IMG/VR virus record: IMGVR_UViG_3300020448_000050
Span: 1-21,557 of that record
Direction: 5' to 3' (one strand)
Source of the DNA: a virus
DNA: 21,557 bases
The notes under the pieces were generated by a model. The model had not been told where the DNA came from and did not search any database. It saw only the letters and a list, made by a program, of their open reading frames with translations. Position numbers and translations under genes: made by a program. This document shows, piece after piece, positions 6,145-12,712 of the stretch. Numbering within the stretch: the first letter of the stretch is position 1; each line of letters begins with the position of its first letter.

Positions 6145-6348
6145 ATGGCACTCTCACAACAAGTATCAGATTCATTAGATGAAGCAAAGGCAAATTTAAG
6201 AAATGCTCTTGCTTGGTCAGCAAGAACTGAAGAACCATATATCAGTAAGCACATTGCAGATATATTATTATCAATAGACACTATCAAAGAAACACATCAA
6301 TATCTTTCTAACATTAAAGATATAATGGGAGAACGTGAAGATAAATAA
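6145..6348 (+). CDS. Conserved small hypothetical protein, 67 aa
   Basis: A 67-aa, predicted all-helical soluble protein (MALSQQVSDSLDEAKANLRN at the start, then ISKHIADILLSIDTIKETHQYLSNI). It starts one base after the stop of the 26-aa ORF, and its codon use matches the neighbours. I recognise it only as resembling a small helical protein seen next to mazG/gp41 in related marine T4-like phages. No catalytic or binding motif is visible. Two amphipathic helices suggest it acts as a small oligomer or adaptor. Confidence 0.8.
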   Translation: MALSQQVSDSLDEAKANLRNALAWSARTEEPYISKHIADILLSIDTIKETHQYLSNIKDIMGEREDK

Positions 6349-7611: not shown

Positions 7612-8538
7612 ATGCCAAACAAACACCTCGAACACCCAGAAGATTCTATCTTTAATGGTCGTAGAGTTGCACTTAAAGCAATCACAGAGATGATCTCGTG
7701 TGAAACTGTTGGTATCAAGTGGGACGGTGCTCCTGCTGTAGTATTCGGTACTAATCCTGCCAATGGTAAATTTTTCGTAGGTACAAAGAGTGTCTTCAAC
7801 AAAAAAATCCCGAAAATCAATTATTCCTTCGACGACATTGAGACCAATCACAAAGGCGATGTGGCAGACATTCTTAGGTTATTGTTTCATTTTGCTCCTC
7901 GTATCAATAGCATTGTTCAAGCTGACTGGATTGGTGTCGGTGGGTCACATTCTTATACTCCTAATTGTTTGGAGTATCGTTTTCCCACTCAAGTCCCTGG
8001 CTATATTGTCATTGCTCCACATACTCTTTATGAGCAAGTTTCTGCGGATTGTATTGGGCACATCGGGATTAATCTTGCTAGTTCATCTACTTGTTACTGT
8101 GTAAGTGCAACAGATGCATGGGCATATGTAGAGAAAGAATTAAATTTTACAGATCAATGGAAGTCGTTTATACCTGTGTTTAGATCTAAAACTCCTCATC
8201 CAAAAGTTGCACCTAAGATCAAGCAACATATCAATAGTTTTGTACGTGAAGGACGTATTCCTGACGCACAGGAAATGTACGATTCGTTACCTGATAAATA
8301 TAAGGGAGAGGTTAGTGTATATACCTTTAAGGCATGGCACTACATCTATCAACTGAAACAGCGTCTACAAAAATCCATCCGTGAAAGCGGTGATGTGGAA
8401 TGCTATATCGATGGACAACCTTCAAAGCATGAAGGTTATGTGATAAATTCCAAAACTCCATATAAACTTGTAGATAGACTAACCTTTAGCAGAGCAAACT
8501 TTAATCTTAGTAAAAATTGGAAGAATGAAAAAGTTTAG
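7612..8538 (+). CDS. Ligase-like nucleotidyltransferase (DNA/RNA ligase superfamily motifs)
   Basis: Predicted lysine-adenylating nucleotidyltransferase, 308 aa. Motif I is GIKWDGAPAVVFG with K36 as the candidate AMP-linked lysine (KxDG). A glycine-rich strand FFVGTKSVFNKK follows. EGYVI (E274) looks like motif IV, and YKLVDR (K285) like motif V. There is no C-terminal OB domain of DNA-ligase size. I believe related phage proteins are filed as a DUF (possibly DUF6267), but I cannot confirm it. The ATG at 7612 is chosen over 7573 because AGGA (7604-7607) precedes it, the conserved-looking start MPNKHLEHPEDSIF fits, and the promoter lies between the two. The end overlaps the next nucleotidyltransferase by 14 bases. 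The substrate (RNA, DNA or small molecule) is unknown. Confidence 0.75.
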   Translation: MPNKHLEHPEDSIFNGRRVALKAITEMISCETVGIKWDGAPAVVFGTNPANGKFFVGTKSVFNKKIPKINYSFDDIETNHKGDVADILRLLFHFAPRINSIVQADWIGVGGSHSYTPNCLEYRFPTQVPGYIVIAPHTLYEQVSADCIGHIGINLASSSTCYCVSATDAWAYVEKELNFTDQWKSFIPVFRSKTPHPKVAPKIKQHINSFVREGRIPDAQEMYDSLPDKYKGEVSVYTFKAWHYIYQLKQRLQKSIRESGDVECYIDGQPSKHEGYVINSKTPYKLVDRLTFSRANFNLSKNWKNEKV

Positions 8539-9676
8539 TGCTTTCCTAAAAGAAGCTCAAAAATCTTTTGCAGCACAAGAAGCAGAAAAACTCAATCTTA
8601 CGCACGTTGGATACGGTAAATATGCCGATCAAACTGGTAAGGTCACGCACATGAGTAAAGACGGTAAACTTACAAAGTTGACCGCAAAAGAATTAGCAGG
8701 AGGAACGACAAATGGAGGAGAAGAAACTGCAGGAAGCGAGGGTTCGGTCGATCAAGGTAGCATATCTATTACTTTTGGAAGATTTAATCCCCCTACTACT
8801 GGACATGAAGCACTTCTAAGTAAAGTAAAAGCTGCTTCTAAGGGAGGAGAGTACAGGATTTACCCTAGTAGATCACAAGATCCTCAGAAGAACCCACTAG
8901 ATCCTGGTACTAAAGTTAAATTCATGAAACAGGCATACCCTGATCATGCAAATGCTATTCAGAATAGTGAAGATATGAAAACTATCTTTGATGTGCTTCA
9001 AACTCTTGATGGTGAAGGATATAGTACAGTAAATTTAGTAGTTGGTGGAGATAGAGTTAGTGAATTTAACTCACTAGCAACCAAGTATAACGGTGATTTA
9101 TATAATTTTGATCAAATTAAAGTTTCTTCTGCGGGCGATAGAGATCCAGATGGTGAAGGTGTAGAAGGAATGAGTGCATCTAAGCTACGTAAGGCAGCTA
9201 TGGATGATGACTATGATACATTTGTGTCAGGTATGCCAGAGAAACTAGGAAGAAAAGGAAAGCAAGAACTATATAATACACTAAGACAAGCAATGCAAGT
9301 CCAAGAAGATCTTGATGATTTTCAAGACGCATCTTATACTCTTTATGAGATAGCACCTAAGTTAGATCCTCAAGCATTGAGAGAACATTACTTTAATGGT
9401 CATATATTTAAGATAGGAGACCTTGTAGAGAATGTAAACACAGGCATATCTGGTAAAGTTGTGAGTCGTGGTAGCAACTATGTTATTTTTGTAGATGAAT
9501 CTGATAGGATATACCGTTCATGGTTGAAAGATCTACAAGAAATCAACAAAATAAAATACTTTAACTTTACACCTGCAGGTGAAATAGGAACTGATGAATT
9601 AGCTAATGCAGTTAAAAAATTGACACCTGGTGAGTTCGTAAAGAAGATAAATAAAAAGGAGAAAGTACTAAAATGA
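8525..9676 (+). CDS. HIGH-motif nucleotidyltransferase with CTS-like N terminus
   Basis: A three-part protein of 383 aa. Residues 1-11 (MKKFSAFLKEA) resemble the T4 capsid-targeting peptide MKTYQEFIAEA. A small domain (about 13-55, THVGYGKYADQTGKVTHMS) and a Gly/Glu linker follow. Residues 80-250 form a cytidylyltransferase-like Rossmann domain: SITFGRFNPPTTGH (82-94, the (H/T)xGH motif ends in H94), LVVGGDR (171-177) and MSASKLRKA (216-224, the ISSTxxR equivalent). This superfamily transfers NMP to substrates such as NMN, phosphopantetheine or glycerol phosphate. Residues about 291-345 (FKIGDLVENVNTGISGKV) look like a small beta-barrel. Partnership with the preceding ligase-like protein is inferred from the overlap. 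The substrate is unknown. Confidence 0.85.
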   Translation: MKKFSAFLKEAQKSFAAQEAEKLNLTHVGYGKYADQTGKVTHMSKDGKLTKLTAKELAGGTTNGGEETAGSEGSVDQGSISITFGRFNPPTTGHEALLSKVKAASKGGEYRIYPSRSQDPQKNPLDPGTKVKFMKQAYPDHANAIQNSEDMKTIFDVLQTLDGEGYSTVNLVVGGDRVSEFNSLATKYNGDLYNFDQIKVSSAGDRDPDGEGVEGMSASKLRKAAMDDDYDTFVSGMPEKLGRKGKQELYNTLRQAMQVQEDLDDFQDASYTLYEIAPKLDPQALREHYFNGHIFKIGDLVENVNTGISGKVVSRGSNYVIFVDESDRIYRSWLKDLQEINKIKYFNFTPAGEIGTDELANAVKKLTPGEFVKKINKKEKVLK

Positions 9677-10641
9677 CAATGAACTTCAACGATTTGCCTG
9701 ATATGTCTGCTGCATATGCAGAAATACAAGAGAAAGCAAAAAAGAAATTAGATGCTGTCGGTAAAGAAGATGGTGATGTAGACAATGATGGTGACAAAGA
9801 CAAGTCCGATTCATATCTCCTCAATAGAAGGAAAGTAATTTCTAAAGCAATTAAGAAAGAATCAGTAGAAGAAGTAGAAGAAGGCAGTGCATATGGTCTA
9901 ACTAAAGGAACTGGTAAACCAGGTGGTGCGATGAAAGCTTTTCTTGATAAGAAGGCAAAAAAATTAGAGGCAGACAAGAAGAAGCAAAAACCAGAGTACA
10001 AAAACAATCCTGCATTTGGTGATCCAAGTCATCATTCAAACAAAAAGATGTCAGAGCATCATCAGAAAGATAAAGATGGTAATACTATTCCTCATGAAGA
10101 TGAATTAAATGAAGCAGATAAGAAAGGTAAGGGTAGTGGTGAAAAAGATGCTTGCTATAAGAAAGTAAAAGCAAGTGCTAAGGTATGGCCAAGTGCATAT
10201 GCATCAGGTAGATTAGTTCAATGTCGTAAGAAAGGTGCAGCAAACTATGGTAATAAGAGTGAGGAAGTAATGTGGGATGAGATCTTTGAATTACTTGAGC
10301 AACTAGGATATGAAGGTGAGATTAATATGATCTTATCTGAGCAGGATGAAGACCCAGAAACAATGGAGTTCCAAGAAGTTTCATGTTGGAAGACTCACAA
10401 GAAGGTTGGTATGAAGATGAAGGGTGGTAAACTCGTCAATGATTGTCGTCCTAAGAATGAAGAAGTCGAGCAGATAGATGAGATATCTGCAGACCTAGCA
10501 CTCAAAGCTTCTAAGAAGGCAGAAGTAGAAAGAGGTAAGGCAGCAGTAGCAGGAAACAAAGAAAAGGCAATAGAAAAGATGAAGCAATCATCTAGACTAT
10601 ATGCTAAACAAGCAGCAAAACGTAAGATGGAGGCAAAGTAA
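9673..10641 (+). CDS. Mosaic Lys-rich protein with an EF-hand/dockerin-like calcium loop
   Basis: 322 aa, highly charged. Residues 35-46 (DVDNDGDKDKSD) fit the 12-residue calcium loop DxDxDGxxxxxD, followed by a basic helix (YLLNRRKVISKAI). Further separate blocks are a Cys-bounded one (ACYKKVKASAKVWPSAYASG, then LVQCRKKGAANYGN), a second Cys pair block (SCWKTHKKVGMKMKGGK, then LVNDCRPK), and a C-terminal alanine-rich helix (ISADLALKASKKAEVERGKA). These blocks look like reusable modules joined by acidic linkers; I remember similar ones in other marine T4-like phage proteins. The protein overlaps its upstream neighbour by 4 bases, with AAGGAG at 9656-9661. Probably a virion-associated or DNA-associated protein; no enzymatic motif is visible. 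Confidence 0.85.
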   Translation: MTMNFNDLPDMSAAYAEIQEKAKKKLDAVGKEDGDVDNDGDKDKSDSYLLNRRKVISKAIKKESVEEVEEGSAYGLTKGTGKPGGAMKAFLDKKAKKLEADKKKQKPEYKNNPAFGDPSHHSNKKMSEHHQKDKDGNTIPHEDELNEADKKGKGSGEKDACYKKVKASAKVWPSAYASGRLVQCRKKGAANYGNKSEEVMWDEIFELLEQLGYEGEINMILSEQDEDPETMEFQEVSCWKTHKKVGMKMKGGKLVNDCRPKNEEVEQIDEISADLALKASKKAEVERGKAAVAGNKEKAIEKMKQSSRLYAKQAAKRKMEAK

Positions 10642-10853
10642 TGTTATCTTTCAAATCATTTAATAAAATATGGGAAGAATGGGAGTCTCTAGACGAAAAC
10701 TATCGTGCAATGAGAAATCCTGAGAAGTATAAACCAGATGATGAATCTGATAAACCATACAGAGAGAGATCAAAAGCAGCAAGAATGAAAGATCCTAAGA
10801 GAGGTATTAATTCTCCTGCATTTAAGAAGTTTATGGCAGATAGAGGAATGTAA
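10641..10853 (+). CDS. Small basic protein, 70 aa, with MLSFKSF leader
   Basis: 70 aa. It starts MLSFKSFNKIWEEW, similar to the next gene's MLSFKAYLAE, then MRNPEKYKPDDESDKPYRER and a C-terminal DPKRGINSPAFKKFMADRGM module that reads as a compact conserved block. Its start overlaps the previous stop by one base (TAATG), and its own stop overlaps the next ATG in the same way. The leader matches the pattern M-[KL]-x-[FY]-x-x-[FY] of T4 capsid-targeting peptides but lacks a clean LxE/IxE cleavage site at position 10. Function unknown; possibly a minor internal head protein. Confidence 0.75.
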   Translation: MLSFKSFNKIWEEWESLDENYRAMRNPEKYKPDDESDKPYRERSKAARMKDPKRGINSPAFKKFMADRGM

Positions 10854-11551
10854 TGTTATCATTTAAAGCGTATCTAGCAGAAAAAAAATCCAAAGTTCTT
10901 ATCAATCCTAAAAAAGATGACCTTAAAGAGGTTAAGAAGGAGCATGGTGAAGACTGTGATTGCATGAAGTGTGAACAGAAACGTCGCAAAGAAGATGTAA
11001 ATGACGGTCCTGATGTACAGAATGAAGCGAAGGTAGATAAAGGTCGTAGCGATTACGGTAAAGCATCTATCAGAAATTATAGGAGAATGGGTCCTGGTCA
11101 TGACGATCCTGGTATGTTTGACCCCTCAGGTAAGAGAGGAAAGGCTATTGACAAACGTAGAGAAGAGCACAAGGCAAGAAGAGGTGTGAAAGGTGCTAAA
11201 GTTCCTGCATACAAAAGAGAAGAAACAGAAGTATATTGGTCAAGTAAAGCATTAGATCAGTTAGATGCGATAAATGAAAAGGATACTGCACTTGATATAG
11301 TAAAGAAAAAAATTATTGCTAAGTATGGTAAAGGTGCTATCATGTCAGGTGGTAGTAGACAGCAGAAGAAAGTCAAGGGTCAGAAAGACACTCGTGGCAC
11401 TGGCAAGTATAAGAAAATGGCAGATCAAAAGAAACAAACTGCTGCTGATGCTAAGAAACGTGGGTTCAAAGATGTACAATCTTATGTAAATACGATGGCA
11501 AGATATGGAGGAAAGGATAATTATGATAAAGGTAAGGGGTTAGGTACTTGA
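10853..11551 (+). CDS. Mosaic basic protein, 232 aa, with capsid-targeting-like leader
   Basis: 232 aa, very basic. The leader MLSFKAYLAE ends in LAE, matching the [LI]xE specificity known for the T4 gp21 prohead protease, so cleavage after E10 would release a 222-aa mature protein. A small cysteine cluster CDCMKCE (35-41) may bind a metal. Residues from about 70 (SIRNYRRMGPGHDDPGMFD) and from about 146 (ALDIVKKKIIAKYGKGAIM) look like separate modules, the latter followed by a Lys/Gln-rich tail. It overlaps its neighbours by 1 and 4 bases. Likely a DNA-associated or internal virion protein; no catalytic motif is seen. Confidence 0.8.
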   Translation: MLSFKAYLAEKKSKVLINPKKDDLKEVKKEHGEDCDCMKCEQKRRKEDVNDGPDVQNEAKVDKGRSDYGKASIRNYRRMGPGHDDPGMFDPSGKRGKAIDKRREEHKARRGVKGAKVPAYKREETEVYWSSKALDQLDAINEKDTALDIVKKKIIAKYGKGAIMSGGSRQQKKVKGQKDTRGTGKYKKMADQKKQTAADAKKRGFKDVQSYVNTMARYGGKDNYDKGKGLGT

Positions 11552-11763
11552 CTTACCCTGCAACTGATGATACACCACATTATGATTGGTGGTTTGATAA
11601 CTCCATACCAAGAGCAAAGTATGGTTCATTACAATGTTGGATTTATAATGAAGATGCAAAGCCATGGATAGAAGATTCCGATCTTACAATACATAATGCA
11701 ATGTATACTATGGCAGGATTAAACCTTGCAATTATAGGAGGCGGTAGCAGTGGAGTGTGGTGA
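11548..11763 (+). CDS. Hypothetical protein, 71 aa, TTG start
   Basis: A 71-aa frame begins with TTG at 11548, overlapping the preceding stop (TTGA), with an AAGGGG-like purine stretch at 11533-11538. The protein is rich in aromatic residues (HYDWWFDNSIPRAKYGSLQCW) and ends in a hydrophobic, glycine-rich tail (MAGLNLAIIGGGSSGVW). There is no later plausible start that keeps most of the frame. The sequence looks coding, but the non-ATG start lowers confidence. Its stop overlaps the next gene by 14 bases. Function unknown. Confidence 0.6.
   Translation: MTYPATDDTPHYDWWFDNSIPRAKYGSLQCWIYNEDAKPWIEDSDLTIHNAMYTMAGLNLAIIGGGSSGVW
11736..11741 (+). promoter_or_regulatory. Perfect Shine-Dalgarno fixing a GTG start
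   Basis: AGGAGG at 11736-11741 lies 8 bases before the GTG at 11750 and supports that non-ATG start. It is the strongest ribosome-binding site noticed in the window. Confidence 0.7.
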
Positions 11764-12712
11764 AGGTAAATACTTCTGTCATCAAGATCAGAAATGTAAA
11801 CCAATACCAAAAGGATATAAAGTCACAATGCCTGATGGAATATTGGTAAAGGAAGGCAACTTACATAAGTGGTTTTCTAAATCCAAATCAAAAGATGGTA
11901 AGAAAGGGTGGGTCAATGTAGTCACAGGTGGTACTTGTGCTAGTGATAAACCTGGTGAAGGAACTCCTAAGTGTGTATCCTCTGCAAAGAGAGCGTCTAT
12001 GTCTAAGGCAGAAAGATTATCTGCACAAAGACGTAAGAAAAAAGCAGATCCTAATCAACAATCTAAGTCTGGTGCTGCTAAACCAACTTATGTTAGAACT
12101 GATTCTAAGAAAAAAATGAAAGAAGAAGTTAAAAGAGATGAGTATGGAGATCCAATAGGAGGACCTAAGATTTCTAAAAAACAACTCAAGAAAAATTTAG
12201 CAAAGAATGAACCTGATTATAAAATTGTAAGGAGTGAAGCTGCTGCGTGGACACGTAAGGCAGGTAAAAATAAAGAAGGTGGTCTGAATGAAAAGGGCAG
12301 GAAGTCTTACGAACGTGAGAATCCTGGTTCAGACCTAAAAGCTCCCAGTAAAAAAGTAGGTAATCCTCGTAGGAAATCGTTCTGTGCCAGAATGAAAGGT
12401 ATGAAGAAGAAACTTACAAGTGCCAAGACTGCAAGAGATCCAGACAGTCGCATTAATAAGTCTCTTCGGGCATGGAATTGTTCTTACGAGTGGCCAAAGG
12501 ACAAAGAGATGATCGAAACAACAAGTTTAAAAAACGAAATCTTAGCGAAAGCTCAAGAGAAACACAGCGAAGCAAAAAAGAAAAAATATAAACAAATTAT
12601 GGATGCAGGTAAGGCTGCTAAGGAGAAAGTAGGTAAAGATCCCAGAGGTGTAAGAGCACTATCAAAAGGTAAGTGGGGATACGTCAAGAATAATAGTTTT
12701 ACACCAGACTAA
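11750..12712 (+). CDS. Cys-containing, Lys/Arg-rich mosaic protein, 320 aa
   Basis: The GTG start has a perfect AGGAGG ribosome site. Blocks in order are a Cys-containing N terminus (MECGEGKYFCHQDQKCKPIP), a WFSKSKSKDGKKGWVNVV block with two more cysteines, a Ser/Lys-rich linker, a block at about 178-246 (GGLNEKGRKSYERENPGS, then RRKSFCARMKGMKKKL, then INKSLRAWNC), and a basic C-terminal tail ending ALSKGKWGYVKNNSFTPD. The third block resembles a domain I recall from marine phages, possibly DUF6321, and looks DNA- or RNA-binding from its charge. This is the last gene of the mosaic cluster; a 35-base gap follows. Exact role unknown. Confidence 0.8.
   Translation: MECGEGKYFCHQDQKCKPIPKGYKVTMPDGILVKEGNLHKWFSKSKSKDGKKGWVNVVTGGTCASDKPGEGTPKCVSSAKRASMSKAERLSAQRRKKKADPNQQSKSGAAKPTYVRTDSKKKMKEEVKRDEYGDPIGGPKISKKQLKKNLAKNEPDYKIVRSEAAAWTRKAGKNKEGGLNEKGRKSYERENPGSDLKAPSKKVGNPRRKSFCARMKGMKKKLTSAKTARDPDSRINKSLRAWNCSYEWPKDKEMIETTSLKNEILAKAQEKHSEAKKKKYKQIMDAGKAAKEKVGKDPRGVRALSKGKWGYVKNNSFTPD

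Follow-up and report, generated by a model that had tools for sequence, protein, structure and literature searches.

Candidate T4-type capsid-targeting leaders on a nucleotidyltransferase and two basic proteins of a T4-like cyanophage

Background

The internal proteins of phage T4 are directed to the head by a short N-terminal targeting sequence (MKTYQEFIAE), processed by the prohead protease gp21: in mutation work, reviewed in PMC9026906, targeting was shown to depend on residues 4 and 7, processing on residues 8 and 10. The T4 head also carries an enzyme, the ADP-ribosyltransferase Alt, which is ejected into the host (PMC9026906). In T4-like cyanophages, which are abundant marine viruses, a cytidylyltransferase of the orthologue group T4-GC190, belonging to the cyanophage core genes (PMC3037559), has been reported from virions of S-SM1, S-SZBM1 and S-CREM2, and its entry into the host has been proposed; a location and a guess were all that this enzyme had. 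In the relevant passages of these reports neither a targeting leader nor a protease site is mentioned, and the link is made here.

The locus described here, which contains the orthologous gene, resembles the T4 internal-protein system in several respects: the leader has equal length and spacing, with aromatic residues at positions 4 and 7 and [LI]xE at positions 8–10, it heads small basic proteins, and a gp21-family protease is encoded by related phages. The best conserved carrier is here an enzyme, maintained across cyanophages, whereas T4 IPI-III are poorly conserved even in relatives (PMC9026906); moreover, cleavage in cyanophages is a prediction. The presence of an enzyme in the head is shared with Alt, but fold and leader are different, the cyanophage enzyme being a nucleotidyltransferase. 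NadD, archaeal NMNAT and PPAT share with it the core fold and a TxGH-type motif; sequence similarity to them is weak, however, and the cyanophage enzyme features, in addition, the leader, an N-terminal module and a C-terminal beta-rich domain.

An injected enzyme of this class had been called little-described in the initial annotation. This is too strong for the virion location, which is published, and for host entry, already suggested for S-CREM2. For the tag, our literature search found no paper tying a capsid targeting sequence to cyanophages, within a coverage of subscription journals thin enough that an earlier report may exist. What is new is, as far as the consulted parts of these papers go, the application of T4-type head targeting to an enzymatic payload of cyanophages; the injection hypothesis is not.

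Results

Gene layout

The analyzed DNA, hereafter the window (21,557 bases), is an entire virus record, and corresponds to a fragment of a T4-like cyanophage. Its gene order matches that of Prochlorococcus phage P-SSM4 (Kyanoviridae), from the DNA polymerase to the ribonucleotide reductase. All genes described below are on the + strand. The central one (8525..9676; 383 aa) encodes an NMN/NaMN-adenylyltransferase-like nucleotidyltransferase, orthologous to the T4-GC190 protein of P-SSM4, matching a PHROG cytidyltransferase family with E=5e-120, and 93–94% identical to its P-SSM4 and P-SSM3 counterparts. Downstream, a basic leaderless protein (9673..10641, phrog_38880), of the same family as the virion-detected gp160 of S-CREM2, separates it from the two other genes bearing a leader: a basic protein of 70 aa (10641..10853, phrog_24078), featuring the leader variant MLSFKSFNKIWE, and a Lys-rich protein of 232 aa (10853..11551, phrog_1784), starting with MLSFKAYLAE. 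Both small proteins have a basic pI (9.5 and 9.8, respectively), unlike the nucleotidyltransferase (6.2). A further basic protein (11750..12712), assigned to DUF6321 and to the phrog_727 family, is leaderless in the window; its relatives in P-SSM7 and in the loci L190 and L213 do bear a leader.

Upstream, a DUF6267 gene (7612..8538) overlaps the start of the nucleotidyltransferase gene by 14 bases. The motifs KWDGAP and EGYV suggest a covalent nucleotidyltransferase of the ligase or capping type; the structure model has low confidence, and yielded no Foldseek match. In S-PM2, DUF6267 is fused to a nucleotidyltransferase devoid of leader.

The T4 late-promoter core, ATAAATA, is found 11 times in the window, only on the + strand (e.g. 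at 6341, 12971, 19449 and 20671), and some copies are directly upstream of gene starts; the total is about that expected by chance.

The leader peptide

The three N termini on which the initial annotation was based are exactly as described: MKKFSAFLKEA (8525), MLSFKSFNKIWEE (10641) and MLSFKAYLAEK (10853). The LxE ending had been attributed to two of them, but in the form [LI]xE it is present in all three: LKE in the first, IWE (residues 10–12) in the second, LAE in the third. Aromatic residues are F4 and F7 in 8525 and 10641, F4 and Y7 in 10853. The pattern proposed to describe them, M[KL]x[FY]xx[FY][IL]xE, fits 8525 and 10853; in 10641 the variant is longer, and resembles the MKTFKEFTSTTTPVSTITE|A start of a T4 protein, which, from its mature sequence, we take to be IPI.

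The comparison with shuffled N termini, suggested at the same time, is strongly in favor of the pattern. In a set of 12 Kyanoviridae genomes, of which S-CREM2 and S-SZBM1 are members, it is matched by 12 of the 2,718 genes; when N-terminal residues 2–11 were shuffled 2,000 times, the matches averaged 0.025 and never exceeded 2. Two or more matches within the window were never obtained in 20,000 shuffles. A somewhat looser pattern is matched by 10 of 2,298 genes, where the internal rate predicts 0.28. P-SSM4 has just two matching genes, orthologous to 8525 and 10853, and T4 genes starting with MKTYQEFIAEA, used as a positive control, were recovered by the method. At least one match (P-HM1 168941, MKYFHIYINE) is apparently fortuitous. 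The leader profile that served for part of the frequency evidence, and for the leaders on unrelated modules (below), was partly trained on leaders later found; the regular-expression tests are free of this circularity.

The nucleotidyltransferase family provides 24 distinct leaders: E10 and F/Y4 are present in all, F7 and L/I/V8 in 23 each, and over the first twelve positions variability is greatest at residue 9. As read from these sequences, conservation falls exactly on the positions that are functional in T4. Together with the module and virion evidence below, these results make it likely, with a probability of about 0.8, that the three N termini are T4-type capsid-targeting sequences, which load their cargo into the head. 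For the nucleotidyltransferase, the leader MKKFSAFLKE, with a putative gp21 cut after E10, occupies 8525..8554, and is supported by pattern significance, by conservation and by a low-confidence tail in the structure model.

The leader as a module

The leader is kept when the following sequence is wholly different, as in MKNFSSFLTE|ADEKQQ of S-CREM2 and MRFRQFIIE|AVAAAA of S-SZBM1, whose virion-detected orthologues have greatly differing linkers; in IMG/VR locus L186, MRNFKDLVTE|QKETVV is joined straight to the catalytic domain. It also heads unrelated modules: MKSFKAFIDE|RCWDGYK (L190), MKSFKSFILE|QEYSKDG (L178), MKTYSQFIVE|HNDGSS (L213) and MKTFSEFISE|RVVSVV (L186). Relatives of the 10853..11551 protein in S-SM1, P-SSM7 and Syn30 retain LxE with an altered spacing.

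In the window, the nucleotidyltransferase leader is followed by a small beta-rich module (AEKLNLTHVGYGKYADQTGKVTHMSKDGKLTKL, 8561..8689), defined by structure model and sequence likeness. Modules resembling it are found behind the leader in the kinase and in the Cas9-annotated protein of S-CREM2, as judged by eye, and in a protein of Xanthomonas phage X1 (tblastn E=4e-4). The latter, from a phage that is not a cyanophage, is 175 aa long (L295:1495-2022), and starts with MSFETYLKE|S, the small module coming next. The S-CREM2 kinase and Cas9-annotated protein have this small GYxD-like module in common with the nucleotidyltransferase.

PHROG fusion families (phrog_455, phrog_24078) had suggested that the leader may be internal in fused proteins; this was discarded, as the S-PM2 nucleotidyltransferase fusion, on inspection, contains no leader.

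Protease and predicted cleavage site

A gp21-family protease is found in all 12 phages examined; the window, being a fragment, holds no gp21 itself. The nucleotidyltransferase leader presents an [LI]xE site at positions 8–10, with a gp21-family protease available in relatives. In P-SSM4, genes 22 and 21 are the top two in [LI]xE enrichment; they rank high in most other cyanophages, as does gene 22 in T4. The major capsid protein of S-SZBM1 features ILTE|A near its N terminus, to be compared with FLTE|A in T4. Enrichment and capsid site, both read from sequence, support the T4 cleavage rule in these phages, and do not prove it. The basic proteins were also considered as candidates for cutting, in the manner of a polyprotein, at [LI]xE sites between their modules; such sites are only mildly enriched in the window (z 2.0–2.8), with z 5.5 in one Syn30 protein. 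Cyanophage leaders would be cut after E10 and, for S-CREM2, the predicted new N termini are ADEKQQQAPK for ORF154, FDRDQESLEESSLSR for ORF6 and EETEAHK for ORF14.

Presence in virions

Virion evidence comes from published proteomes of orthologues, in phages other than the window's own. The T4-GC190 protein is reported in purified virions of S-SM1 (PMC3037559); in S-SZBM1 the cytidylyltransferase was detected with its downstream neighbor S-SZBM1_139 (PMC9146016), and in S-CREM2 the same enzyme, ORF154, with the neighbors ORF155, ORF156 and ORF160 (PMC10665884). Absence from purified virions had been indicated as one outcome adverse to packaging: in these three reports the opposite is seen for orthologues of the nucleotidyltransferase. 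The S-CREM2 authors also proposed that the cytidylyltransferase enters the host, with no targeting mechanism in the relevant section of that paper (PMC10665884).

The whole S-CREM2 genome was scanned in six frames with a leader profile from whose training S-CREM2 sequences had been excluded; it selected four ORFs, namely the cytidylyltransferase, an APH-like kinase, a 78-aa protein and a SAM hydrolase (Pfam S-AdoMet_lyase). Each of the four belongs to the set of 52 proteins detected in virions (hypergeometric p ~0.003, for about 219 genes). ORF136, whose leader match is just below threshold, is likewise detected, and so is the Cas9-annotated protein, which features LRFASFMAE|A behind a 16-residue extension; a Pfam search of the latter found no domain. 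The kinase of S-CRM01, whose N terminus is MISFDQFLSE, is also reported in virions, according to PMC10665884. The tag being common to other virion-found enzymes of relatives, enzymes that bear it probably travel in the particle.

The correspondence is not complete. S-SZBM1_191 and S-SZBM1_192 have strong leaders, yet are missing from the 30 proteins that were reported as detected, and no clear leader is seen in the virion-detected ORF155, ORF156 and ORF160 of S-CREM2.

In S-PM2, where the fused nucleotidyltransferase has no leader, T4-GC190 was undetected in virions (PMC3037559), an absence which is only suggestive, because the same study missed gp4, gp5, gp14 and others.

Several of the virion-detected S-CREM2 genes (Cas9-annotated protein, 78-aa protein, kinase, ORF15) form an operon (L272:7704-13331), where several genes start with a leader or contain one near their start.

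The nucleotidyltransferase

In the AlphaFold2 model (mean pLDDT 66), the leader has low confidence and is followed by the small beta-rich segment, by the nucleotidyltransferase core and by a beta-rich domain at the C terminus. The core (8759..9298) is defined by the motifs GRFNPPTTGH, VVGGDRVSEF and MSASKLR, by the model and by fold matches: Foldseek pairs it, with probability 1.00, with phosphopantetheine, nicotinate-mononucleotide and nicotinamide-mononucleotide adenylyltransferases (PPAT, NaMNAT, NMNAT). The expected alpha/beta fold is present, GRFNPPTTGH and MSASKLR are conserved as HxGH-type and ISSTxxR-type motifs, and the catalytic motifs are invariant across the family. The C-terminal domain (9365..9544), defined by the structure model, is SH3-like by appearance; in P-HM1 and S-PM2 it is a stand-alone protein.

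The window protein misses the curated cut-offs of TIGR00482 (15.1 vs 112 bits) and PF01467 (17.7 vs 21), and the structural score of its core for PPAT equals that for NMNAT; for these reasons the enzyme is called NMNAT-like, and not NMNAT. We rate a NAD-type substrate, NMN or NaMN being the leading guess, at slightly under even odds. Phages are described to rebuild NAD, against NAD-depleting defenses, through the NARP1 pathway (PMC12774641); in this light, an enzyme that forms NAD and is carried in the head would be plausible. An apparent NAD-pathway companion, the P-SSM4 'NAD synthetase' (PSSM4_172.1, L034:6823-7308), was rejected: it is a SegE-type GIY-YIG endonuclease (Pfam E=4e-56).

Discussion

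Three other explanations have to be weighed against head targeting. The N termini might be ordinary amphipathic helices, or parts of a folded domain, whose conservation stems from folding or from the overlap with DUF6267, and their T4 likeness would be accidental. The motif is indeed short, and the first 14 bases of the nucleotidyltransferase gene do overlap the end of DUF6267. This overlap cannot explain the conservation, because residues 7, 8 and 10 lie beyond it and because the leader is kept without it in S-CREM2, S-SZBM1, P-SSM2 and P-TIM68; conservation merely through overlap is thus ruled out. As for folding, the structure model puts the leader outside the fold, unrelated modules carry it, and residue 9 varies freely between the conserved residues 8 and 10, all of which makes accidental likeness the least probable of the three, and very improbable. 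Hardly more credit is given to co-purification, in which abundant proteins of the host lysate would contaminate the virions, and the enzyme would be an unpackaged auxiliary metabolic enzyme of the infected cell. It was raised as possible by the S-CREM2 authors themselves (PMC10665884), particles were purified by CsCl, and the reported peptides are few (3 in S-CREM2, 2 in S-SZBM1); still, the enzyme is reported from three phages in separate studies, and in S-CREM2 the genome-wide top four leader ORFs were all detected in virions.

The remaining explanation accepts the leader and limits the cargo to a role in the particle: the basic proteins would neutralize DNA charge or aid core assembly, and the enzyme would be a structural passenger. 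Both small leader proteins are Lys-rich, and T4 IPIII is known to influence head assembly (PMC9026906). A passenger, on the other hand, would not need the catalytic motifs that are invariant across the family, and SAM lyase and kinase domains are found behind the same leader in relatives. We consider this reading improbable, though about twice as credible as either of the former.

Targeting to the head, followed by delivery, is therefore the preferred reading, and its first part is well supported. During head assembly, the aromatic residues 4 and 7 would carry each protein into the prohead core, where gp21 would cut behind [LI]xE, so that the mature protein would lie unattached in the head, beside the DNA. 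The cargo would be the NMN/NaMN-adenylyltransferase-like enzyme and the two small Lys-rich proteins and, by analogy with T4 internal proteins and Alt, would probably pass into the host together with the DNA. There the enzyme would most likely act on nucleotide cofactors (the NAD pool), ahead of phage gene expression.

A broader proposal, more tentative than that of the substrate, concerns the Kyanoviridae as a whole: one head-loading tag, with a small module shared by several of the enzymes, may deliver swappable enzymes as an anti-defense and take-over payload, acting before expression. Members would be the NMNAT-like transferase, the SAM lyase, the kinase-like enzyme and perhaps the Cas9-annotated protein, the NMNAT-like one guarding the NAD pool against NAD-depleting defenses. 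Such a tag would account for the kinases, SAM lyases and cytidylyltransferases found in cyanophage virions and, being readable, would allow a list of predicted head-carried proteins to be derived from the genome of any T4-like cyanophage.

Leader genes also occur in adjacent sets elsewhere. In P-SSM2 (101770-102536; L123:1770-2279 and 2276-2536), the gene of a SAM-lyase-family protein starting with MRTFQEFLQLCE and a second leader gene, MKSFKQFLEEA, overlap, and the two may form a packaged anti-restriction pair; phrog_26015, the family of this locus, is also matched by ORF 10853-11551 of the window. In pelagiphage HTVC008M (113582-116426; L078:13582-16426), adjacent genes start with MKSFKDF, MRTYRAF and MKTFTDF, and may represent a comparable set whose leaders are longer.
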